A DNA stretch of 27,797 nt. It comes from a virus. The stretch lies in IMG/VR virus record IMGVR_UViG_3300021091_000332, positions 1-27,797 of that record. One strand, 5' to 3'. The notes below the pieces were generated by a model. That model saw only the letters and a list, made by a program, of their open reading frames with translations, ran no database searches and was not told where the DNA came from. Of this stretch, positions 12,355-25,826 are shown one piece after another; the stretch's first letter is position 1, and every line of letters begins with the position of its first letter. The position numbers and the translations under genes were made by a program.

Positions 12355-13167
12355 TTAACCTACCATAAATGCTGGTGCTATTTCAAAACTATCTCTTATT
12401 TCTTTTTCTAATTTTTCAATATCTGTTTGTGCGTCTGTGAAAATCTTTTCGCCATTGAGTTTAACGCCACCTAACATTACTACTCCATCAAATTTACTTA
12501 AATTAGCACCCCATTGTTTTTTAAATAATGCTGTTGTATATCTTTTTAACCATTGATCGTTAAACACATCCGTAAAAGTGGCTGGGTCTAATTTTCTATA
12601 ACAATCTATAATTAAATATTCATCTACTTCTAAATCATTCACCCAATCCATATCAATATATAAACGATTATCGTGTTGTTGAAATCTTATAGGTTTTACA
12701 CCTACTAATATTTGATCTAAAAAATCTAAATGTCTTAATACTATATCATAGTTAATAATTGATGTTGAAGCAAAATCATATAAGTCGTTTAATCTTAATT
12801 GATATCTTACATCAAACATATTCATACTTGCTTTATCTGAAAAAGGAAATATATTTGTTACGGCAATAACTGTGCTTGGAACTATAAGAAAATTGTTTGC
12901 TTCGTACCAAGTTGTGCTGACACCACCTTGTGTAGGTGTTTCAGAAGTTGGTGTTGAAGCTTTTAATCTGTCTTTATCAGCTGATGTAAGTTTATATTTT
13001 AAATATGTTCGTCTAATACCGTCATAGTGATATTGAGCATAGTATTGTAATGCTTCGTCCAGTCGATCTTCTAACTGGTCATCATCAACGTTTATCTCTA
13101 TTACTGGTTTACCTAATGCTCTTAAAGCATATTGTTTTAGTGTTTCTCTAGTAGATGGATTTGCCAT
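12355..13167 (-). CDS. 13: Neck protein gp13
   Basis: I place the start at the ATG ending at 13167 (270 residues, MANPSTRETLKQYALRALGKPVIEINV). The open frame runs 42 codons further upstream, but that extra part crosses the end of the porin-like gene and the late promoter box. The opening and DQLEDRLDEALQYYAQYHYDG, YLIIDCYRKLDP and WLKRYTTALFKKQWGANLSKFDGV are clear gp13 signatures. T4 gp13 has 309 residues. Gp13 is the head-proximal neck protein. A TATAAATA box ends 8 bases before ATG, predicting a leader of only about 3 bases and no normal ribosome-binding site. Confidence 0.94.
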   Translation of the reverse strand: MANPSTRETLKQYALRALGKPVIEINVDDDQLEDRLDEALQYYAQYHYDGIRRTYLKYKLTSADKDRLKASTPTSETPTQGGVSTTWYEANNFLIVPSTVIAVTNIFPFSDKASMNMFDVRYQLRLNDLYDFASTSIINYDIVLRHLDFLDQILVGVKPIRFQQHDNRLYIDMDWVNDLEVDEYLIIDCYRKLDPATFTDVFNDQWLKRYTTALFKKQWGANLSKFDGVVMLGGVKLNGEKIFTDAQTDIEKLEKEIRDSFEIAPAFMVG

Positions 13168-13175
13168 AACTCTAC

Positions 13176-13183
13176 TATTTATA
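13176..13183 (-). promoter_or_regulatory. T4-type late promoter upstream of gp13
   Basis: TATAAATA on the minus strand lies in the 25-base gap after the porin-like gene, with 8 bases between the box and the gp13 ATG. It supports the shorter gp13 start and marks the boundary between accessory island and neck genes. Confidence 0.6.
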
Positions 13184-13192
13184 TAAAAGAAA

Positions 13193-14293
13193 TTAGAACT
13201 TATAGCGTATAGTTGCGAGTATCTGTGGAGTATAGTCTTTATATACGCCTGTTGTTGTTGAGATTTGTTCTTTATCGTGGTAGTATAATCCAAATTCTAA
13301 ACCAGCTCTTTTATCTGGCCGTTTGTGTTTATCATCTTCAGTGTGTATATTATAAACAAGTCCCCAATAATTACCCGTAAATCCTAAATCATCATTTTCT
13401 GTTCTGTGAACTGTACCATAAATGCGTTCATTAAAACTATATAATAAGCCGTAATCATATCTGTTTTTGCTGGCAAAACCTGTATCCATATCGTCCCAAA
13501 CTTCTGCACCCCAAATCAAAGGAATATTCCAACGATATAAAGTACCACCTAATGCCCAACCTTTTTGTGTTCGTTCATTAAAAGAAGCTACATTTGTTGA
13601 ACTTTTTGGATTTTTTATTTGCATATAAGATAAATCAGCATATCCAAAAAGTCCTACAGTTGCACCTGTATATAAAGCATCTCTTTCGTTATCCCAACCT
13701 ACAACTAAACCTAGAGGCAAATCATTTCTTAATCTATATGAATCAAAATCGAATTGTTTGTCCCAATTAAAACCACCAATTGCTAGAACTGTTTTCTCTC
13801 TATGATCTATCCTTGAATTTGTCTGCGTAATAATTAATGGTGCACCAACCTTTGGTGTCTTTGCAAAACCTAAACGTTGTGCGTCTGTTTCACCAAGATA
13901 TAATCTGTAATAGTCATTACCAATACCAATTTGTTTTTCTTGTATCGTATTGTTTTTTGTTGTATCTAAAGAATAATATGTGTCATATAGCATTGAAGTA
14001 CCTGTCCAATTGACATAGGGATTATTAAATTTATGATTTATACCAATTTGTAATTCAGCTCTTGAATCCCAACCACTATCGTAAGTACGATCATCATAAT
14101 AACCTTCTATTTCGCCTGTGATGAATAGGCCTTTAGGTATGGAAATTTTGTTTGATTCTAATTGTGATATTCTTTTTTCTAAATCAGATATTTTCTTTTC
14201 GTCTGCTTTTACAAGAGAGGTTGCCAATAAAGCAATAACGATTAAAACAATTATGGCAAAATATTGTATAATCAATCTTTTATCTAGTTTCAT
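13193..14293 (-). CDS. Outer-membrane porin-like beta-barrel protein
   Basis: The 366-residue protein starts with a basic n-region (MKLDKR), a hydrophobic stretch (about 8-25) and a V-K-A site predicting signal-peptidase cleavage after A30. A short coiled coil follows, with I35, L38, I42 and L45 in heptad positions. The rest is alternating aromatic/polar strands rich in Tyr, Gly, Trp and Asp, with repeated turns, and the protein ends in a strand finishing ...RYKF. A C-terminal Phe is the usual outer-membrane insertion signal. This architecture resembles Gram-negative porins with an N-terminal coiled coil. A phage could use it to alter permeability or replace or block a receptor; that is inference. 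It starts 1 base after the bilin reductase stop. A near-consensus late box (GATAAATA, 14300-14307) lies 6 bases before ATG. The specific family is not identified. Confidence 0.82.
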   Translation of the reverse strand: MKLDKRLIIQYFAIIVLIVIALLATSLVKADEKKISDLEKRISQLESNKISIPKGLFITGEIEGYYDDRTYDSGWDSRAELQIGINHKFNNPYVNWTGTSMLYDTYYSLDTTKNNTIQEKQIGIGNDYYRLYLGETDAQRLGFAKTPKVGAPLIITQTNSRIDHREKTVLAIGGFNWDKQFDFDSYRLRNDLPLGLVVGWDNERDALYTGATVGLFGYADLSYMQIKNPKSSTNVASFNERTQKGWALGGTLYRWNIPLIWGAEVWDDMDTGFASKNRYDYGLLYSFNERIYGTVHRTENDDLGFTGNYWGLVYNIHTEDDKHKRPDKRAGLEFGLYYHDKEQISTTTGVYKDYTPQILATIRYKF

Positions 14294-14294
14294 A

Positions 14295-14978
14295 TTAAGT
14301 ATTTATCTTTGGAAAAAGATGGTCTTTATTAAATACTAAGACATCTTTTTCATCTAATCCTAAAGATAACATTACTCTAGGAGTATGTGGGTTTTTTTGT
14401 TGATGTTCACAATAATAGTTTTGTGCTGTTATTACATCTTCTCTTTTAGAATCGTTTTTAAAATCGCCAATTTTATCTAAGTAATTATGTAGATTACTTT
14501 CGGCCATTGTTGTTACTTGGAATAATTCTTCTTCTGTCTGTATATTACCAGCGGCAATCATACCACCACTAAAAATGGCCTTTGCCCAATCTGGCAATTC
14601 TCTTGCTTTACTTGGTTTGTACCATTTAGTTTCATTGATAAACCAATTTGTTAATGAGTGTTCTTTTTTAAGTAATGGTGAAAAATCGTGGAACGCACCT
14701 GTTACTTTATTCTTACCTGCAATTACGTCAAATCCATATATTGGGCCGCCATTTGTAAGACCTGGAAATAAACAAACGTGCATCATCCATAAACCTTTTG
14801 TCTCTCTTGCGTCAACCACATCAACGTGTGCTCGTCTTACGTTATCATTTTTCCAAGTACGATTGACCCAACCTTCTTTATTAAATCGTGTCATACCATC
14901 TTCAAAGTATTCTACACAATTTAAATCTAAAATATCTATGATGTTATTCTTGCACTGTATAAGATTTTCCCAAATCAT
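14295..14978 (-). CDS. pcyX: Ferredoxin-dependent bilin reductase, PcyX/PcyA type
   Basis: The protein has 227 residues. The core RRAHVDVVDARETKGLWMMH followed by GPIYGFDVIAGKNKV and FHDFSP (48-101) is the bilin reductase signature. H67 and D84 have the spacing of His88 and Asp105 in PcyA (17 residues). The position of PcyA Glu76, needed for 18-vinyl reduction, appears to hold D53, with a two-residue insertion after it. The product should reduce biliverdin with electrons from ferredoxin. Loss of the Glu fits PcyX, a family reported from uncultured oceanic phages that forms phycoerythrobilin, better than PcyA, which forms phycocyanobilin; the symbol is a best guess. PebS seems less likely because it has Asn, not His, at the 88 position. 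Heme oxygenase, source of biliverdin, is two genes upstream. Confidence 0.88.
   Translation of the reverse strand: MIWENLIQCKNNIIDILDLNCVEYFEDGMTRFNKEGWVNRTWKNDNVRRAHVDVVDARETKGLWMMHVCLFPGLTNGGPIYGFDVIAGKNKVTGAFHDFSPLLKKEHSLTNWFINETKWYKPSKARELPDWAKAIFSGGMIAAGNIQTEEELFQVTTMAESNLHNYLDKIGDFKNDSKREDVITAQNYYCEHQQKNPHTPRVMLSLGLDEKDVLVFNKDHLFPKINT
14300..14307 (-). promoter_or_regulatory. Weak late-promoter-like box before the porin-like gene
   Basis: The minus strand reads GATAAATA, one mismatch to TATAAATA, ending 6 bases before the ATG at 14293. It lies inside the end of the bilin reductase gene, so it could be chance. If used, the leader would be one base. Confidence 0.3.
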
Positions 14979-14981
14979 ACG

Positions 14982-15461
14982 TTAAAAGTAATTTAAATTT
15001 AAAACCATTCTATAATTAGTGTCTGTATGTGTTGTTCCTGTGTGTTCTAAATTTGAAGGAAATATAACAATTCTATTTTCAACACTTTCTACTTCTTTTC
15101 CATTTTTAAAAATAGTTTTACCATTATTTTTATTTAAATAAAAAACAGCCGTATTACATTTAAAGTTTACGTCTGTATGTAAAATAAATTTTTTAATTAC
15201 ACTTTCTTTAAATGTTGCATTTAATTTAATGTGAACCAGTGATTTTACATTTAATTTTAATAATAGAGGTTCTATTGAAGAAAAATAATCACTATTAATT
15301 TTGTTATTTGTAAAAAAAAGATGAGTAAATTGAAAATTACCATCGTCTTTATTTACTTTTCCTTTTTGAAAATACCAAGGGAAATTAGGGTCGACATAAG
15401 TATTTTTTAAACTATTAAAATATTCTTTGTCTAAAAAATCATCAATTATTTTTATATTCAT
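14982..15461 (-). CDS. 2-oxoglutarate/Fe(II) oxygenase-like protein
   Basis: The 159-residue protein fits the double-stranded beta-helix oxygenase pattern. The sequence LHTDV supplies H95-x-D97, SNLEHTG supplies the distal H140, and NYRMVLNLNY supplies R151, the usual 2-oxoglutarate carboxylate ligand. The segment IVIFPSNLEH is the typical seventh strand. It opens with IKIIDDFLDKEYFNSLKN, as in phage members of this superfamily. The substrate is unknown. The gene overlaps the end of heme oxygenase by 20 bases and ends 3 bases before the bilin reductase, so all three are presumably made from one message. It is lysine- and asparagine-rich and very AT-rich. Coupling suggests a link with the bilin genes, but sequence alone does not show it. 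Confidence 0.75.
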   Translation of the reverse strand: MNIKIIDDFLDKEYFNSLKNTYVDPNFPWYFQKGKVNKDDGNFQFTHLFFTNNKINSDYFSSIEPLLLKLNVKSLVHIKLNATFKESVIKKFILHTDVNFKCNTAVFYLNKNNGKTIFKNGKEVESVENRIVIFPSNLEHTGTTHTDTNYRMVLNLNYF

Positions 15462-16005
15462 TCATTTCCTTAAATAATTCTGTAGCATACTCAAAACATA
15501 ATTTAGCTTCAGCGACCACGTTTATTTGATATGTGTTCATATAGTTATTTATTATCTCTCTTATAACTCTTTTTGTTTCTTCAGGTTTTAAAAATACAAG
15601 ATACGTATTTGGGCCAGGAGTTTTTCTTTTAATCATTTGGCCACCATATAAATCTCCCATATGTCTTACGTAAATATGTGCATATAATTTTTCGGCATCA
15701 TCTTTAATTGTGTCTAAGTGATAGACATATCTTAACGTGCTGTCTGTGATATGAGGTTTTTCTGGTTTGTTCCAAAGTGAACGAAAATCGTGGTCTATCT
15801 TTTGAGCTCTATCTAAACCTGGTGTTTGTCTAAACAGGCCATTTGCAAAAGCATACTTTTCAAGTGTAGCATAACACTGTAATAGATTAAACAAATATGT
15901 AGCATAAAGGTCTGGATTTATCTGGCCAGACATAAGAGTTTTTACAAAAGGTTCTGATTCTGCCTTTTTATGTTCATCTAAAGTCAATTGTCTTATATCA
16001 TTCAT
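15442..16005 (-). CDS. ho: Heme oxygenase
   Basis: This enzyme opens heme with O2 and reduced ferredoxin to biliverdin IX-alpha, Fe(II) and CO. The proximal heme ligand is H12 in LTLDEHKKAES, matching the A-H-x-x-A-E motif of HO-1. The distal helix is YVRHMGDLYGGQMIKR (112-127), the diagnostic heme oxygenase signature with its flexible G-D-x-x-G-G-Q kink. At 187 residues it is shorter than typical cyanobacterial HO1 (about 240) and looks C-terminally trimmed, but the catalytic helices are intact. The start ATG follows a CATAAATA late box by exactly 5 bases, which predicts an mRNA starting on the A of ATG. The divergent oxygenase gene starts 30 bases away. Product and partner logic points to the bilin reductase at 14295-14978. 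Confidence 0.93.
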   Translation of the reverse strand: MNDIRQLTLDEHKKAESEPFVKTLMSGQINPDLYATYLFNLLQCYATLEKYAFANGLFRQTPGLDRAQKIDHDFRSLWNKPEKPHITDSTLRYVYHLDTIKDDAEKLYAHIYVRHMGDLYGGQMIKRKTPGPNTYLVFLKPEETKRVIREIINNYMNTYQINVVAEAKLCFEYATELFKEMNEYKNN

Positions 16006-16010
16006 ATATC

Positions 16011-16018
16011 TATTTATG
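16011..16018 (-). promoter_or_regulatory. Late promoter of heme oxygenase, leaderless spacing
   Basis: The minus strand reads CATAAATA, one mismatch to the consensus, followed by five bases and then the heme oxygenase ATG. With T4 geometry the transcript starts on the A of ATG. It is back to back with the plus-strand box at 16022, three bases apart. Confidence 0.55.
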
Positions 16019-16034: not shown

Positions 16035-16661
16035 ATGAACAATCAACTTTTGCAATTATGGCCTACACCTGTTTATTTGGCTCAAACAAATTTAATAACT
16101 AACGAAATTATAGAAAACGTAAAAAGTCAAAGTTACGATAGAACAAGTAATAATTTAAATGATATAACTATTGACAAAAAAATATTATTAAAAACGGAAT
16201 TTAAAAATTTAAAAGAAAATATTGATAAACATTTTTATAATTACGTTTATAATATATTAAATATTAATACTGATAACAAGTTTATTATGACAAATAGTTG
16301 GATTTTAAAAAATCTTTCTAACGAAACAACTCACGCACATACACATCAAAATTGTATATTTTCAGGAGTAATATATGTAGTTGCTGAAGAAAATCAAGGT
16401 GTATTAAAAATTCATAAAGACTACGATCAAATATTTGATAATTCTATAAAACCTGATTTTTCGCAAAGAAACATTTTTAATTGTGATGAGTGGAATATAA
16501 CACCTCAAAAATCATTACTAATAATATTTCCTTCAAAATTAAAACATAGTATTACTGAAAATAAATCAAACAAAACTAGATATAGTATTTCTTTTAATTA
16601 TTTTTTAACTGGTGTTGTAGGCGATAGTCCTGTAATTAGATTAAATTTAAATTGTTCTTAA
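16035..16661 (+). CDS. Putative 2OG-Fe(II) oxygenase (TIGR02466 / 2OG-FeII_Oxy_5 type)
   Basis: This 208-residue protein is one of two genes on the plus strand. It opens with QLWPTPVYLAQ, the usual 'F/W-P-T-P-V/I-Y' start of the family. It has H100-A-H102-T-H104-Q-N around the first metal ligands, SGVIYVV, then LLIIFPSKLKHSI with distal H171, and TRYSISFNYF with R182 for 2-oxoglutarate. A C-terminal tail of about 18 residues follows the last strand. Such proteins are common in marine T4-like phages; no substrate is known to me. No ribosome-binding site is present and the promoter predicts a leaderless message. Its stop codon overlaps the stop of the opposing gene by three bases, with no terminator hairpin between. 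Confidence 0.85.
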   Translation: MNNQLLQLWPTPVYLAQTNLITNEIIENVKSQSYDRTSNNLNDITIDKKILLKTEFKNLKENIDKHFYNYVYNILNINTDNKFIMTNSWILKNLSNETTHAHTHQNCIFSGVIYVVAEENQGVLKIHKDYDQIFDNSIKPDFSQRNIFNCDEWNITPQKSLLIIFPSKLKHSITENKSNKTRYSISFNYFLTGVVGDSPVIRLNLNCS

Positions 16662-17251
16662 AAATAATTTAACCATCCTGTAATAATAAATTTTTCTTCT
16701 GTATTAGAAACAATACCTCTATGAGTATGAGTCCAATCTGTAGGCCATATTAAAGTTAATCCTTTTTTACATTTTGTTATTATGTTTTGAATAGGAAATT
16801 CTGTACCGCCCTCACTTACATCATTTAAATAAGTCATAAAAACTAATACTCTATTATTATTAGGTCCTTGTCTTTCAGTATGAAAACATTTAAAACCTCC
16901 GCCTGGTTTATAATATTGTATATTTACTGGTTCAATTAAACCAAATACACCTCCATTATTTAAATGCGTAAACGTTTCTAAATATTTTTTTAAGCACAAA
17001 TCTAAATGATTCCAATAATTATTAAACAATAAATCTGTTTTAAATTTTTCAGTATTTACACCTATATCTATAGAATCTTTTTGTGTAACATCTATTTTAG
17101 GACCCTTATCATTTCCTACAACCCCTCTTTCGTGTAAATCTTTATTTGTTTTAAAATAATGTATAATATCATCACATAATTTTGTGTCAGTCATACGATA
17201 ACCTTGTATAAAATTTACAGGTTTAAAATTAAAATCTTCTTTTTCAATCAT
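16658..17251 (-). CDS. Prolyl-4-hydroxylase-like 2OG-Fe(II) oxygenase
   Basis: The 197-residue protein is of the P4Hc type. VNIQYYKPGGGFKCFHTERQ (109-128) carries the first ligands as H124-T-E126, then FMTYLNDVSEGGTEFP (138-153), a hallmark of prolyl hydroxylases, then WPTDWTHTHRGIVS with distal H177, and EEKFIITGWLNY with K187 as the probable 2-oxoglutarate anchor. The second ligand is Glu, not the usual Asp, which is uncommon in this group. It may hydroxylate a protein side chain, perhaps in a virion protein; that is inference. The stop is tail-to-tail with the plus-strand gene. Its ATG lies one base after the halogenase stop, so it is probably expressed from the halogenase transcript. The sequence is very AT-rich. 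Confidence 0.87.
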   Translation of the reverse strand: MIEKEDFNFKPVNFIQGYRMTDTKLCDDIIHYFKTNKDLHERGVVGNDKGPKIDVTQKDSIDIGVNTEKFKTDLLFNNYWNHLDLCLKKYLETFTHLNNGGVFGLIEPVNIQYYKPGGGFKCFHTERQGPNNNRVLVFMTYLNDVSEGGTEFPIQNIITKCKKGLTLIWPTDWTHTHRGIVSNTEEKFIITGWLNYF

Positions 17252-17252
17252 A

Positions 17253-18743
17253 TTACAAATTTTTTAAATAATTATTTAAATTAGTGGTTGTTAAGTAATT
17301 TTTTTTAACCATATTTGTTTTTATATCATAATTTAATTTAAATCTAATTTCATCCAACTCATTAAAATCAAATTGATTATGAATTAACACTCTTTCTATA
17401 ATTTTTTTATTAAAATATCCTAGTCCGGCTAAGGTATAATTCCATATTGATTGATCTGCACATCCATCATATGATTCAAAATCTGAACTTCTTGTTAGCC
17501 TTGATTTTGCTAAATCAATTATGTTTATTAATCTTTCAGATTTGTAACTATAATGATTTATATAATTCCAAAATACATTATCTTTTCTATTTCCTAAATA
17601 AGTTATTTGAACAAAATCTTTTAAATCATTATTTAATTTAAAAATTTCTTTATTATATTTTTCTATAGAAACTGGTATAAAAGTTTCTTTTATTGTAGGC
17701 ATTAAACAATTTGCAACTAATTTTTTTAAACTTACAAGCAATATATGTAAACTGGTAGCTTGTAAAGGTTCTAAGAAAGATGAAGATAAACCTAAGGAAA
17801 TGCAATTTGATACCCAAGTATCTTGAAAAACTCCTGCAGAAAAATTTATTTTTTTAATTACTTCAATATCATTATCATTATAGTATTCTTTTATTTCTTT
17901 TAAAGCATTATTTTCATTTGTAAAAACATTATTATAAACGTATCCTCTTCCAATTTTATATCTTGTGGGAATTTCAAAAATCCAGCCATTTTTCATAGCT
18001 ATTGAAATTGAGTGAGAAAATCTATTATCGGAATCCTTTTTTGTTTTAAAAATTATAGCTTCGTTAACAGGCAGACTTTCCTCAAACGATATCCAATTAG
18101 ATTTTAATTTTGATATTAATAATCTTTGCATTCCCGTACAGTCTATAAAAACGTCAGCTGTTATACTTTCATTATTAGACAAAATTAATTTTTCTATTTT
18201 ATTATTTTTAACCTCAATAGTTTTTACAATTTCATCTAAAACCTTTATTTTCGTTTTTGATTTAAAATATTCTACAAATTTATGAGCATCAATATGATAA
18301 GATTTATAGTAATCCCATTTTAATGTATTATCTTCAATGTAATATGGAACAACATTATTTACAAAATAGTGGCCACTGATACTACTTTTACTTAAATCTA
18401 AATCACTTAATAAATGATAAAATAAGTTTGCATCTAAATTTTTTTTAGCTGTTGTTGAACCCTCTAAAGGACTGAAAAAGTAAGAATTTTCTCCTGACCA
18501 ATTTTTAAATAATATTCCTATTTTTGGTAACGCCCAACTTTTAATTAAAAAATCTATTTCATCTAATTCTAAACTAGGATCTAAAAATAAATCGCTCAGT
18601 GTTCCTGTAACTCCTTCACCCACTCCTATATAAGGAATTTTACTAGAGTCAATAATTGAAATGTCTTGATACGGTTGTTTTTTACTTAATAAGAAAGCAG
18701 TTAACCAGCCTGCAGTTCCTCCTCCTACTATAACAATTTTCAT
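17253..18743 (-). CDS. prnA-like: Flavin-dependent tryptophan-halogenase-like protein
   Basis: The 496-residue protein has the length of PrnA/RebH enzymes. IVIVGGGTAGWLTA (3-16) is the FAD-binding fingerprint. YIGVGEG (38-44) follows, and K74 in LPKIGILFKNW sits where the catalytic lysine is expected. IDCTG (200-204) is the second FAD motif and SFLEPLQATSLH (322-333) holds the conserved Glu near the active site. The halogenase motif W-x-W-x-I-P appears as W254-I-F-E-I-P259, with Phe for the second Trp. It would use FADH2, O2 and halide to chlorinate or brominate an indole or other aromatic; substrate and halide are not deducible. It overlaps the upstream gene by 4 bases (ATGA) with an AAGGA site. 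Similar genes occur in some marine cyanomyoviruses. Confidence 0.9.
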   Translation of the reverse strand: MKIVIVGGGTAGWLTAFLLSKKQPYQDISIIDSSKIPYIGVGEGVTGTLSDLFLDPSLELDEIDFLIKSWALPKIGILFKNWSGENSYFFSPLEGSTTAKKNLDANLFYHLLSDLDLSKSSISGHYFVNNVVPYYIEDNTLKWDYYKSYHIDAHKFVEYFKSKTKIKVLDEIVKTIEVKNNKIEKLILSNNESITADVFIDCTGMQRLLISKLKSNWISFEESLPVNEAIIFKTKKDSDNRFSHSISIAMKNGWIFEIPTRYKIGRGYVYNNVFTNENNALKEIKEYYNDNDIEVIKKINFSAGVFQDTWVSNCISLGLSSSFLEPLQATSLHILLVSLKKLVANCLMPTIKETFIPVSIEKYNKEIFKLNNDLKDFVQITYLGNRKDNVFWNYINHYSYKSERLINIIDLAKSRLTRSSDFESYDGCADQSIWNYTLAGLGYFNKKIIERVLIHNQFDFNELDEIRFKLNYDIKTNMVKKNYLTTTNLNNYLKNL

Positions 18744-19285
18744 TTTTTCCTTATAAAAGATTTAAAACAAATCATATCTTCGTTATTATTTAAAAAAGTT
18801 CCGTGCCAAAGTATTCCTGGAAAAATTATTACATCATTTTCTAAAGTTTTAATTTCTTGTTTTTTATTATTTATTACAATATAATAATTTGGATTGTTTA
18901 TATTTTTTTTAATAAAATGTATAATGGTGTAAGGCAATTCAATATTTTTTTTTTCTTGAATTCCTTTTGATAAATCAACATCTATGCCTTCTAAATTCTG
19001 TTCATTTATTAAACAATCTCTTTCAGTTTTTTTATAAATGACATCAATATATCCTTGAGTAAAAACAAAATCAAAATTATAATCAAAATTTAATTTAAAA
19101 TTTTTAATTACTTTACTATATAAATTTGTGAAAAAAGATTTTTTTAAATTTTCACTTTTAGTATTTGTAAAAAATGTACAATTTACCAAATTATTTTCGT
19201 GATAAGATTTTAAAACAATATCGCTAATTTGTTTATTAAAAAAATTAAATTTAAAAATTTTTACGTTTTCTATTGTTATAATCAT
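18740..19285 (-). CDS. Degenerate 2OG-oxygenase-like protein, function unknown
   Basis: The 181-residue protein is rich in Lys, Asn, Ile and Phe and is not clearly assignable. The C-terminal part, with NDVIIFPGILWHGT (150-163, H161) and a final strand M-I-C-F-K-S-F with K175, looks like the last strands of a double-stranded beta-helix oxygenase. I cannot find an H-x-D/E pair for the first metal ligands in the expected place before it. It may be an inactive relative, a substrate-binding partner of the halogenase, or a divergent active enzyme. It begins 1 base after the upstream oxygenase stop and overlaps the halogenase start as ATGA, so the three are probably translated as a coupled unit. Confidence 0.65.
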   Translation of the reverse strand: MIITIENVKIFKFNFFNKQISDIVLKSYHENNLVNCTFFTNTKSENLKKSFFTNLYSKVIKNFKLNFDYNFDFVFTQGYIDVIYKKTERDCLINEQNLEGIDVDLSKGIQEKKNIELPYTIIHFIKKNINNPNYYIVINNKKQEIKTLENDVIIFPGILWHGTFLNNNEDMICFKSFIRKK

Positions 19286-19286
19286 T

Positions 19287-19865
19287 TTAACTGATATTAA
19301 AAGCTGCTGTTATTCTAGGTGTTTCATTATTACATTTTTGAACCATATGTTTTACGTTTGACCTAAAAATTACCAAAGTTTTTGGTTTAAAATTATAACT
19401 GCAATTTAAAGAATTTACTTGATTATAATTTTTTACGTTTTTTAAAGGCAACATATCAGGTTCATAAGGATTTTCAAAATATAATTTTCCCGATTTTTCT
19501 GGATTGGTTACAAAATAGACAGCACTAAAAATAGAATTACTATGTGTATGCCATTCCTGATAATCGCCTGCATTATACAAGTTTATCCAGCCATCATCAC
19601 AATTATAAGTGTAATCAGATTGCAATTCTTTAGCAAATAAATTAACGTTTTCATTTACTTTTTCAATTAAGAAATTAAAATTTTTATCATTTTTTAAATT
19701 GTAAGAGCCTAAAGTATTATATACATCCGATATCCAATTTTTACCACCTTTTTCATAATTCTTTAAAACATTCAAAAACAAATTTTTTATTTGTTCATTT
19801 TCTGCGTCAGAAAAAAGGTTTTCTTTTACATATAAAACAGTAGGAAACCAATAATGTAGAATCAT
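19287..19865 (-). CDS. Putative 2OG-Fe(II) oxygenase (TIGR02466 / 2OG-FeII_Oxy_5 type)
   Basis: The 192-residue protein opens with LHYWFPTVLYV, the family's usual start. WINLYNAGDYQEWHTHSNSI (93-112) provides metal ligands around H106 and H108, SAVYFV is the next strand, TLVIFRSNVKHMV provides distal H173, and TPRITAAFNIS provides R184 and the C-terminus. It is the first gene of a tightly coupled minus-strand set with the degenerate relative, the halogenase and the prolyl-hydroxylase-like gene. The late box TATAAATA ends exactly 5 bases before the ATG, predicting a leaderless message. It is a distant paralogue of the plus-strand gene at 16035. The substrate is unknown. Confidence 0.87.
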   Translation of the reverse strand: MILHYWFPTVLYVKENLFSDAENEQIKNLFLNVLKNYEKGGKNWISDVYNTLGSYNLKNDKNFNFLIEKVNENVNLFAKELQSDYTYNCDDGWINLYNAGDYQEWHTHSNSIFSAVYFVTNPEKSGKLYFENPYEPDMLPLKNVKNYNQVNSLNCSYNFKPKTLVIFRSNVKHMVQKCNNETPRITAAFNIS

Positions 19866-19878: not shown

Positions 19879-19927
19879 TGCTTTTTAATTGTATATATAT
19901 ACCATAGATTATATTGAAAAAGGAAAT

Positions 19928-20524
19928 ATGCAATATCATTGGTGGTTAAAAGAAAGTATTTTAGAACCTTATGTTTACGGTGAAAAAATATTTAATAATG
20001 AAGAAATAGAAAAAATAATAAAAATAGGAAAAGACGAAAAATTCAGCACCGTTCAGGAACCTTTTATAGGTGATGAAAAAGGTGATGCAGTAAAAGACAT
20101 ATCTAGCAGAAATTGTTTTTTATCATTTATAAGATCTGATTTAACTAATAACGAATGGATTTTTAGAAGAATAACGGATGCCATAATAAACGTTAATCGA
20201 GATTTTTATAGTTATAATATAGAATACATTGAAAATTTACAATTTACAGAATATCAAAGTCCCGGACATTTCTACGGAAAACACGTAGATTTGCAATATA
20301 AAAGTTCAAAAACAAGAAAAATAAGTTTTTCAATTCAACTTACTGAAGATACTGAATATGAAGGAGGTGATTTAATTTTATATACAGGTAAAGAAACAAA
20401 AACCAAAAGAAATAAAGGTTGTATAAATATTTTTCCTAGTTATATGTTACACGAAGTAACACCTGTAACTAAAGGTACTAGATGTAGTTTAGTAGGATGG
20501 ATTTTAGGGCCTAGTTTTAAATAA
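19928..20524 (+). CDS. Prolyl-4-hydroxylase-like (PKHD-type) 2OG-Fe(II) oxygenase
   Basis: I choose the ATG at 19928 (198 residues, MQYHWWLKESILEPYVY) because AAGGAAAT lies just upstream; a start 13 codons earlier has no ribosome-binding site and adds an unconvincing peptide. Domain features are YQSPGHFYGKHVDLQY (109-124) with H119-x-D121, RKISFSIQLTEDTEYEGGDL (130-149), INIFPSYMLHEVTPV with distal H175, and TRCSLVGWILGP with R185. This matches the PKHD/PiuC-like hydroxylase pattern found in many T4-like marine phages. It lies on the plus strand against the direction of the late genes. Its stop abuts the stop of the glycine-rich protein gene with no gap. The substrate may be a virion or host protein; unknown. 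Confidence 0.88.
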   Translation: MQYHWWLKESILEPYVYGEKIFNNEEIEKIIKIGKDEKFSTVQEPFIGDEKGDAVKDISSRNCFLSFIRSDLTNNEWIFRRITDAIINVNRDFYSYNIEYIENLQFTEYQSPGHFYGKHVDLQYKSSKTRKISFSIQLTEDTEYEGGDLILYTGKETKTKRNKGCINIFPSYMLHEVTPVTKGTRCSLVGWILGPSFK

Positions 20525-22130: not shown

Positions 22131-25100
22131 TTAATTTTCTATTAATTTCCAACCATATGTGGAACCTGTATATACTATGCCAAAAGCTGCATCTTCTTGG
22201 GATATTACTAAATTTTCTGTTAATCCCATTATTTTATTTCCAGCTCTTTCCAATGTTAAATTATTTGTATCAAAAGTACTCGCTAAATCTAAAAATCTTA
22301 TTTGATCTCCTGTTTGTGGAGAAATAGGTAAATTAATTGTACAAGCTGCTGCTGAAGTATTTACAAATATTCTATCATTTGAAGCAGCTGTAAACGCACT
22401 CGAACCATCGGCCGTAACTGTTGTCCAAGGATTACCACCACCTAAACCTGTCCATTGTGTGCCGTTATAACCTTCCCAAGTAACTAAAGAAGTATTAAAT
22501 CTTAAACCACCTGTAAATAATCCAAAACCTGATGTTGGCCTTTCAGCAGTTGTACCTGTAGGAGGAACAAATACACCTGTTCCCATATTATCTCTTTGTA
22601 TGTAACCAACAATCGCATTTTCTGTAGGACAAGCTGTGTTTGAATTACCTGACATTGACTCATCTGTAGAAAACTCATTGATTGTAGCGCCCAATTGAGC
22701 ACCAATAGAACCTAGTTGTAATTCTGTTAATCCTGAAAGGTCAAAAGCATCAGCATTTAAAGTTGCAATACCAGTTGCCTGTTGAATACGGAATAAATCT
22801 CCAACTCTAAAGTCTCCGCCTTGGTCTGAAGATGTCCAGTAAACTCTACCACCTGTATTATATTCTACTTCATCTGATTGATCGGCCGGTTGTAAAGGAG
22901 TATTAGGATAATTTGTATCTACAAAACCTCCTGTACCTATATCTAAGAAATCGTGGCCGGTAAATCTACAGTTAGAATACTTACGAGTAAATTGAACTTG
23001 TGTGCCGTCTGCCACAGCATCTAAAGTTGAAACTTCTGAAGTTAAACGAATTGTAATTGTCTGAGCAGCAGTATTTTCATTTGTAATACCTGATACTGTA
23101 TAGAAGAATGAGTTTCCAGCAAATTTACAGTTATCTCCTAATTTAATAATTCCTGTTGTGCTGAGTGTGCCATCAATTGATTCCATTTCAATAAGAGCGC
23201 CAGATTGTTTAGCACCATTACCACTAATACCAGCAGCTGTGTTTGGTATAGCAAATGTAAATGTACCAGCACTTAATCTTGTAACTGTAACTGTTTCACC
23301 TTGTGTAAAATTACCTGCTGCAGGATCTAAGTGTAATTTATTACCTGAAATATTTAATCTGAAAATCGAACCTGTTGCACCTGATGTTACTCCTACAAGT
23401 GTTTGACCCACTTCAAATTCTGAAGCACCTGCACCAGTAATAGTTAATGGGTTATAACTAATAGTACGACCTCTTGTTGTTACAGTAACAGGAGTTTCTG
23501 ACGCTAACTGGCCTTCAGCAACAATACCTTCTTCTCCATAAGCAGATGAACAGTTTAATCCTCGTAAGAATCCTCCGCCTGATGTATAGAAAGATTTATC
23601 ACAATAATATGTAAATACGGAAACCATTTCACCTCGGCCTCCGTTTAATGCCCAAACTCCTAAACCATCTGAATTAATCTGTGTAAAGTCGTTTGCAAGA
23701 ATTGATCTATTACTTGTAGCAGTCGGATGTAATAATCCGTCAATTTTAATACCTACAGCATTATCGCTGAACGAAGTACAGTTTTGTATATAAGGCGATG
23801 TATTTGTAATTAATTCTTCAGGATCTAAAGATATCATAACGGCACCGTGGCCACCTGTGTAAGTAGCAGCACTGTGTGTTTGTAGGCCTGTAAATCCTCT
23901 AAATGCAAAATATTCAACGTTAGCACCATTAGCACATAAGAAAACATAACCAGCATTATTATTTTCTAAAGCTGTAACTGTTAAAATACAATTACCGCCT
24001 CCACCAATATCTATTGAGTCTAAAGTAATAGTATCATTCACAGCATATCCATATCCTCCGTGTACTACTGTAATTACTGGAAGAGATGAACCATCTTTAA
24101 CAACAGTAAATCTAGCACCAGCTCCTGAACCTGATGTTGATGTTTGTGAAATATAAGTATATGATCCTGCTGTGCCACCTGTACCACCTGATGTTCGTGT
24201 AACAGTAGCAATAGTAGATGATGAGCCTGTTGCTGGCCTAATTTCTGTTGATCTTAAACTATCACCTCTAATTGTAACAAAAGCAGGAACACGTAAAGGT
24301 GTTTGTTCTCTATAAGATCCATTTCTTACATATAAAACATCTCCAGCATTTATTGATTTAACAGTAAAAGTTATATCAGTAGCTGGTGTGCCACCGATTT
24401 GAGCGAGAGGAATAGTTATTGTATTTCCTACTGTGTAATTTTTACCACCATTTGTTATGTCTATAACAGGTTGAGATGAACCATCAATAGTAACTCTTGC
24501 GGTAAATCCTGTTCCAGATCCACCTGAACCTGTTACATCATAAGTTCCTGCAATACCACCTGTTCCACCAGTGATAGTAGAAGTATCAAAATCTGTTACA
24601 TCACCTTTACCACATTGAGTTAAAGCGTATGCAATTGTTTTAAAAGGTAATAATTCTGTTCCTGGATTTGAGTTATCTCCATCATTAGCAACATATAATA
24701 TATTTCTATTTGTAGGATTTTTCCAAACAGGATCTAAACCGTTTGAAGTTAATTGAGAACCTGCAACACCTAGGGGTAAACGAGCAGCAGCTGAGGCGCT
24801 TCTTACAACAATATCTCCTCTTTGTTCTAATACCGCTTGACTATCGCCTTGTGCTAATATAGACCATTTTTCTGCGTCTGTTCCTGGCGTTACGTTTAAA
24901 AAATTGTCTGCGATAGCAAGATATGAACTAGCTGTATATGATACTACATCTCCTCTAAAGTAAGTTAATACGTTACTATACGCTCCTCTATAATTTATAC
25001 CTTGAACAACTAATTGCCATTTTGATGAATGTGTATAAGGACTTTGAGCAGCTGTCGTATCTTCAATACAAACAAAAGAAAAACCTCCAAATATTACAAT

Positions 25101-25826
25101 TTCTCCAGTTTTATAAGCTGCAACATTACTCCAAGTCCCTGCTGCTTTAAATCCAGGAACAACTAAATCCCAGTTTGCACCTGAAGCTAAAGGAGCTGCC
25201 TGGCCAGCTGCAACTTCTTGAGCGGCCACATAAGCATATCCACCATAAGTTACTACATCACCTTTTTGATATGCTGTGCCTGAACTCCAAGAATCTTCAA
25301 ATTGTAATCCTTCTGTATAAGCAGAAAATTTTGTTTCATCAAAAGCTGAAGCACTTGCTGATGAAGTGTGAGCAGTTATACAAATCCATAAACTTGCTCC
25401 ATATTTAACTACGTCATTTACTTTGTAATAAGTACTTGTTGCATAAGCGCCTTTGTAATCTGTAGCGTCAATATATAATTCAAAATTAGCAGCGTTTAAT
25501 ATTGCTACACCACTAACGGCCGCAGCTGAAGTATGTTGAGTTGTACAACGATATTGTCTTGCACCATATTTTACAACGTCATTTAATTTATAAAATGTAG
25601 AAGCCGCATAAGTGCCTTTAAAGAAAAGAGATTCAGCTTGTAATGACCAATAGTTTGTATAAGGGCCATCATAAAATTGTGCTTCCGTAGCAGATGAAGT
25701 AAAATTTGCTATGGCTACGTAAGTATTACCACCGTATTTTACTACGTCATCTATTAAATAACCAGTATTAGTAGACCAGTTACCTCGCCATTTAAATTTA
25801 ATCCTACCTAGTTTAAAATCTGCCAT
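22131..25826 (-). CDS. Large tail fibre protein with six carbohydrate-binding-like repeats
   Basis: The 1231-residue protein opens with six tandem repeats (about 11-62, 68-118, 124-170, 176-222, 228-273, 279-324). Each has the pattern W/F-x-x-x-Y-x-x-x-D-V-V-x-Y-G-x-x-x-Y-x-x, like the small chitin/cellulose-binding CBM5/12 fold. After VANDGDNSNPGTELLPFKTI (379-398), a parallel beta-helix opening of the pectate-lyase kind, come two related Gly-Thr-rich inserts (about 419-488 and 547-618), then a beta-helix body. The C-terminus (about 1115-1231) has phage-fibre motifs such as GLRFNTSLVTWEGYNGTQW. It is probably the main side or long fibre contacting host surface glycan. No catalytic motif was recognised. 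An AAGG site and a TATAAATA box precede the ATG. Confidence 0.87.
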   Translation of the reverse strand: MADFKLGRIKFKWRGNWSTNTGYLIDDVVKYGGNTYVAIANFTSSATEAQFYDGPYTNYWSLQAESLFFKGTYAASTFYKLNDVVKYGARQYRCTTQHTSAAAVSGVAILNAANFELYIDATDYKGAYATSTYYKVNDVVKYGASLWICITAHTSSASASAFDETKFSAYTEGLQFEDSWSSGTAYQKGDVVTYGGYAYVAAQEVAAGQAAPLASGANWDLVVPGFKAAGTWSNVAAYKTGEIVIFGGFSFVCIEDTTAAQSPYTHSSKWQLVVQGINYRGAYSNVLTYFRGDVVSYTASSYLAIADNFLNVTPGTDAEKWSILAQGDSQAVLEQRGDIVVRSASAAARLPLGVAGSQLTSNGLDPVWKNPTNRNILYVANDGDNSNPGTELLPFKTIAYALTQCGKGDVTDFDTSTITGGTGGIAGTYDVTGSGGSGTGFTARVTIDGSSQPVIDITNGGKNYTVGNTITIPLAQIGGTPATDITFTVKSINAGDVLYVRNGSYREQTPLRVPAFVTIRGDSLRSTEIRPATGSSSTIATVTRTSGGTGGTAGSYTYISQTSTSGSGAGARFTVVKDGSSLPVITVVHGGYGYAVNDTITLDSIDIGGGGNCILTVTALENNNAGYVFLCANGANVEYFAFRGFTGLQTHSAATYTGGHGAVMISLDPEELITNTSPYIQNCTSFSDNAVGIKIDGLLHPTATSNRSILANDFTQINSDGLGVWALNGGRGEMVSVFTYYCDKSFYTSGGGFLRGLNCSSAYGEEGIVAEGQLASETPVTVTTRGRTISYNPLTITGAGASEFEVGQTLVGVTSGATGSIFRLNISGNKLHLDPAAGNFTQGETVTVTRLSAGTFTFAIPNTAAGISGNGAKQSGALIEMESIDGTLSTTGIIKLGDNCKFAGNSFFYTVSGITNENTAAQTITIRLTSEVSTLDAVADGTQVQFTRKYSNCRFTGHDFLDIGTGGFVDTNYPNTPLQPADQSDEVEYNTGGRVYWTSSDQGGDFRVGDLFRIQQATGIATLNADAFDLSGLTELQLGSIGAQLGATINEFSTDESMSGNSNTACPTENAIVGYIQRDNMGTGVFVPPTGTTAERPTSGFGLFTGGLRFNTSLVTWEGYNGTQWTGLGGGNPWTTVTADGSSAFTAASNDRIFVNTSAAACTINLPISPQTGDQIRFLDLASTFDTNNLTLERAGNKIMGLTENLVISQEDAAFGIVYTGSTYGWKLIEN

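Follow-up and report, generated by a model that had tools for sequence, protein, structure and literature searches.

The hemO-pcyX cassette, which combines genes for a heme oxygenase (HemO) and a ferredoxin-dependent bilin reductase (FDBR), has already been published. The locus examined here is a further member of that group and not a new system; it lies in the 27.8-kb virus record IMGVR_UViG_3300021091_000332, analyzed over its entire 27,797 nucleotides and called the window below. In the hemO-pcyA/X-alaS cassettes of aquatic phages (PMC11480375), HemO and PcyA/X are found in myophages of heterotrophs, as they appear to be in the window, but the window fragment is without alaS. Characterized PcyX enzymes produce the pink pigment phycoerythrobilin (PEB) (PMC11480375, PMC13197396), also when PcyX is expressed in cells (PMC13197396), and Asp55 has been named as the PcyX-specific catalytic residue (PMC11480375). 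The enzyme of freshwater phage CB_2, first called PcyA/X, is a true PcyA that makes phycocyanobilin (PCB), likely because it lacks Asp55 (PMC11480375). PebS of cyanophage P-SSM2 resembles the window reductase, as interpreted below, in that one enzyme of a T4-like phage converts biliverdin to PEB, but it belongs to a different FDBR branch, has Asn at the PcyX His67 position and has a cyanobacterial host.

The isolate Pelagibacter phage Mosig EXVC030M (Mosig) has hemO and pcyX in that order too, at the matching position between the tail-fiber region and gp13. The structural genes of Mosig and the window are collinear and mostly 72-78% identical, while PcyX is 70% and HemO 59% identical. The similar values for PcyX and the structural genes fit inheritance of pcyX with the phage backbone. 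In Mosig, hemO and pcyX overlap without an insert and the porin is absent, whereas the window has both an insert and a porin. The Mosig reductase carries a PcyA annotation.

Two bilin genes in a T4-like late region

The T4-like late region proposed in the initial annotation is borne out by the portal, tube, sheath, terL, gp15, gp14 and gp13 genes, found on the minus strand of the window together with gp22 and gp21. Upstream of gp13, the order of transcription is hemO, a 2OG-oxygenase-like gene, pcyX and a porin-like gene:

16011-16018, minus strand: late-promoter-like CATAAATA, separated from the start codon of hemO by 5 nt
15442-16005, minus strand: heme oxygenase (HemO), 187 aa, predicted from PF01126, the proximal His12 and the GDLYGGQ distal-helix motif
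14982-15461, minus strand: 2OG-Fe(II)-oxygenase-like gene between hemO and pcyX; PHROG 274, annotated 'DNA endonuclease V', with a weak 2OG match
14295-14978, minus strand: PcyX-type ferredoxin-dependent bilin reductase, 227 aa, supported by the 5OWG match, tree and model; Asp53, His67 and Asp84
13193-14293, minus strand: outer-membrane porin-like protein, 366 aa, from an AlphaFold model and Foldseek
13176-13183, minus strand: late-promoter-like TATAAATA before gp13, bounding the hemO-pcyX-porin block on its gp13 side
12355-13167, minus strand: gp13 neck protein, the flanking landmark; PHROG 211, 75% identity to Mosig

The end of hemO overlaps the next gene by 20 nt, 3 nt precede pcyX and a gap of 1 nt separates pcyX from the porin gene. 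While hemO and the reductase gene do lie on the same strand, they had been described as two genes apart, and a single gene (14982-15461) intervenes. The listed TTG start of gp13 at 13293 is probably too early, and a 136-aa open frame antisense to pcyX (14575-14985, plus strand) is probably due to chance.

HemO matches PF01126 (E 1.3e-18, Pfam) and thirty solved heme oxygenase sequences, best 5kzl (E 5e-11). The two features by which it had first been recognized, His12 and YVRHMGDLYGGQ, are both present in the 15442-16005 ORF. His12, Gly117, Asp118, Gly121, Gly122 and Gln123 are invariant in up to 70 relatives, and the Ser of GDLSGG is replaced by Tyr in the window protein, likewise in 30 of 70 relatives. 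The family match, the proximal His and the distal GDxxGGQ helix identify the predicted product as a heme oxygenase of the HemO/HO-1 type. Values of dN/dS of about 0.06-0.17 against close relatives indicate that both hemO and pcyX are under purifying selection.

Several other auxiliary genes are found in the same part of the window. Grouped around hemO-pcyX are at least four genes with a clear 2OG-Fe(II) oxygenase assignment (16035-16661, plus strand; 16658-17251, minus strand; 19287-19865, minus strand; 19889-20524, plus strand), and among them 18740-19285 gave no convincing family match. A tryptophan halogenase-like gene (17253-18743, minus strand; PF04820, E 2e-78) has no counterpart in the Mosig stretch that was compared. 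The long tail-fiber protein (22131-25826, minus strand) contains four CBM_5_12 carbohydrate-binding stretches.

Assignment of the reductase and the predicted pathway

The reductase matches PF05996 (Fe_bilin_red; E 3e-16, Pfam). Of the solved structures, the one it matches best is a characterized PcyX from an uncultured marine phage, PcyX_EBK42635 (5OWG; E 2e-106, residues 1-225), with PcyA coming next (E 8e-14). The Pfam and 5OWG matches, like that of HemO to PF01126, lie well outside what chance would give. The two PcyX proteins align over their full length, share three catalytic residues and the same fold, and are 65% identical over 179 superposed residues; the stretch ahead of the active site is two residues shorter in the window reductase, which also branches elsewhere in the PcyX tree. 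His67, Asp84 and FHDFSP, pointed out in the initial annotation, are present in the 14295-14978 ORF. Asp53, His67 and Asp84 align with PcyX Asp55, His69 and Asp86 and are invariant in 82 of 82 sequences, and the alignment further pairs His67 and Asp84 with PcyA His88 and Asp105. That annotation had also taken an Asp, shifted by two residues, to stand in for PcyA Glu76, in agreement with our alignment, in which Asp53 sits on both PcyA Glu76 and PcyX Asp55 and the loop before His67 is two residues longer; at the site where PcyA has Glu76, the window reductase thus has Asp.

Phylogeny and structure gave the same assignment. In an FDBR tree of 33 sequences, which has several long branches and in which PcyA and Peb references are few and some are fragments read from alignments, one origin suffices for PcyX (support 86/95; recovered in 99% of bootstrap trees) and the window protein lies inside it, among eight PcyX rows that form a starred set. 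The PebS/PebA/PebB branch excludes it, with a starred Peb separation of 98/99. Set against PcyX, PcyA, PebS, PebA and PebB, the protein was placed with PcyX and not within PcyA with an intact Glu76. The AlphaFold model (pLDDT 93.3) superposes best on the PcyX crystal structure 5OWG (VIA) (Z 27.7, rmsd 0.7 Å over 179 residues), compared with Z 26 and 2.3 Å for PcyA. Taken with Asp53 on the PcyX Asp55 position, these results support the PcyX type that was originally suggested. It is extremely improbable that the protein is instead a PcyA forming PCB: PcyA and PcyX are neighboring groups with a common fold and one phage PcyA/X proved to be a PcyA (PMC11480375), but the E values favor PcyX, the Asp that replaces Glu76 is invariant in the clade, the protein is inside PcyX in the tree, and the CB_2 PcyA is without the Asp55 that the window reductase has.

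By analogy with characterized homologues, the heme oxygenase would open the heme ring to give biliverdin IXalpha together with free Fe2+ and CO, and the PcyX-type reductase would convert biliverdin to 15,16-dihydrobiliverdin and then to PEB, the expected product of this protein, in two two-electron steps. A reduced [2Fe-2S] ferredoxin, either cellular or phage-encoded, would supply the electrons; Mosig has a gene for a [2Fe-2S] ferredoxin, a possible donor. Membership of both proteins in the appropriate families and their intact catalytic residues support the two-step route from heme to a reduced bilin put forward in the initial annotation, and in terms of biochemical identity we consider it highly probable that hemO and the reductase gene encode such a pathway.

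Conservation, late-promoter motifs and the adjoining porin

A scan of IMG/VR returned 583 stretches encoding relatives, and 80 loci were kept. The hemO gene lies upstream of pcyX in all 72 loci that have upstream sequence, and in the remaining 8 of the 80 no more than about 200 nt of contig precede pcyX. In most relatives the two genes are adjacent or overlapping, and a few loci have 2OG-type or unidentified inserts. We found no PcyX on plasmids. Related pairs were also observed in contigs binned with unrelated MAGs (L116-L120), and these are likely stray phage DNA. Inspection by eye placed a nitrilase-like gene beside pcyX in L118 (3384-5681) and L131, also on contigs binned with unrelated MAGs; in L118 this gene separates hemO from pcyX. 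These two contigs, one of them 335 kb long, probably come from large phages. In the cultured bacterium Shewanella surugensis, a heme oxygenase gene precedes a PcyX fragment that a stop cuts short (L121, 4444-5213), and another contig carries an intact reductase in which Asn takes the place of Asp55 (L127, 1405-2175); transposase-like ORFs were seen by eye nearby.

The motif TATAAATA is the T4 late-promoter consensus. It stands ahead of gp13 in each of the loci compared (42 of 42), and we found no earlier description of a late-promoter motif at this place. Another copy precedes the divergent gene at 16035 by 5 nt, and L005 and L013 carry it at the corresponding place upstream of hemO; most other relatives have no motif right upstream of hemO. 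Over the whole window the motif is not enriched (9 observed versus 7.1 expected), and only its placement is informative. Judging from the relatives, late expression of hemO-pcyX is plausible.

The gene that directly follows pcyX, in the window as in its clade (L001-L033), encodes a protein with a signal-peptide-like N terminus, a short coiled coil, a barrel of about 16 strands and a C-terminal Phe. Its AlphaFold model (pLDDT 72.5) has OmpF/OmpU porins as top Foldseek matches (E from 2e-9), and its dN/dS is 0.11-0.18. Comparing the sequence with Pfam, PHROGs, PDB sequences and phage records gave no match, our literature search on phage-encoded porins returned nothing on this family, and the family is apparently unannotated. 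A search for a bacterial origin, run on 289 genomes of one class and with no positive control, gave no match. The porin family, which includes L160-L207 besides the L001-L033 clade, yielded 128 relatives in one IMG/VR scan, many on contigs with no pcyX nearby, and pcyX is missing in 26 of the 64 porin loci with upstream room, so a strict association of the porin with pcyX does not hold as a rule. The porin is also found without pcyX, so a function shared between them is only a possibility. We consider it very unlikely that hemO, pcyX and the porin gene work as a single unit in a heterotrophic host, with the porin carrying bilin, heme or iron through the outer membrane.

Host and possible benefit of the pathway

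The portal protein is 72% identical to that of the SAR11 phage Mosig, compared with 60% for OM43 phage Melnitz, 59% for HTVC008M and 55-58% for cyanophages. The structural genes are closest to those of SAR11 myophages, as expected of a Mosig-like pelagimyophage. Because they match Mosig best, a SAR11-type heterotrophic host is likely on sequence grounds. We found no tRNA genes in the window.

On what such a phage would gain from a bilin, the cassette study likewise comes to no conclusion (PMC11480375). The likeliest reading, which we hold tentatively, is that bilin formation itself is under selection, the product acting as a soluble antioxidant, an electron sink or a signal. We favor it over iron release, a close second, because one relative (the L046 record, L209, a 177-kb viral contig) encodes, at a distance of about 3.3 kb from pcyX, a 5-aminolevulinate synthase (TIGR01821, E 3e-171), and degrading newly made heme would yield no net iron; published cassettes likewise join alaS with hemO and pcyA/X (PMC11480375).

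Under iron salvage, the useful output would be Fe2+ from host heme, serving phage and host Fe enzymes, and PcyX would only clear biliverdin to keep the heme oxygenase turning over. A role in supplying iron has already been put forward (PMC11480375) and would suit the abundance of Fe(II)/2OG oxygenase genes nearby (the four listed above and, weakly, 14982-15461). It would also agree with the lack of an obvious bilin acceptor, in that no phycobiliprotein (PF00502) was found in eight related records, which are mostly fragments and therefore weak evidence. Making heme only to break it would defeat this purpose, however, and iron release would need the heme oxygenase alone; we regard iron salvage as somewhat unlikely. 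Light harvesting, in which PEB would load the phycobilisomes of a cyanobacterial host as proposed for cyanophage PebS, is highly improbable: PEB is a phycobilisome chromophore, PcyX-made PEB enters phycobilisomes when expressed in Synechococcus (PMC13197396) and cyanophages carry PcyA or PebS, but the portal is nearer to Mosig than to cyanophages, no photosynthesis gene was recognized in the window, as already noted in the initial annotation, and the cyanophage bilin reductases fall outside the PcyX group in our tree.

With the window, a well-supported PcyX clade joins a puzzling known case, that of a light-harvesting pigment from phages of non-photosynthetic bacteria. The pathway has apparently been kept in place while the structural genes diverged by about a quarter, and it therefore seems to pay without phycobilisomes. 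Phage annotators could name the as yet unannotated porin family next to it, and Mosig and Pelagibacter HTCC1062 offer a cultured system in which the benefit of the pathway can be tested.
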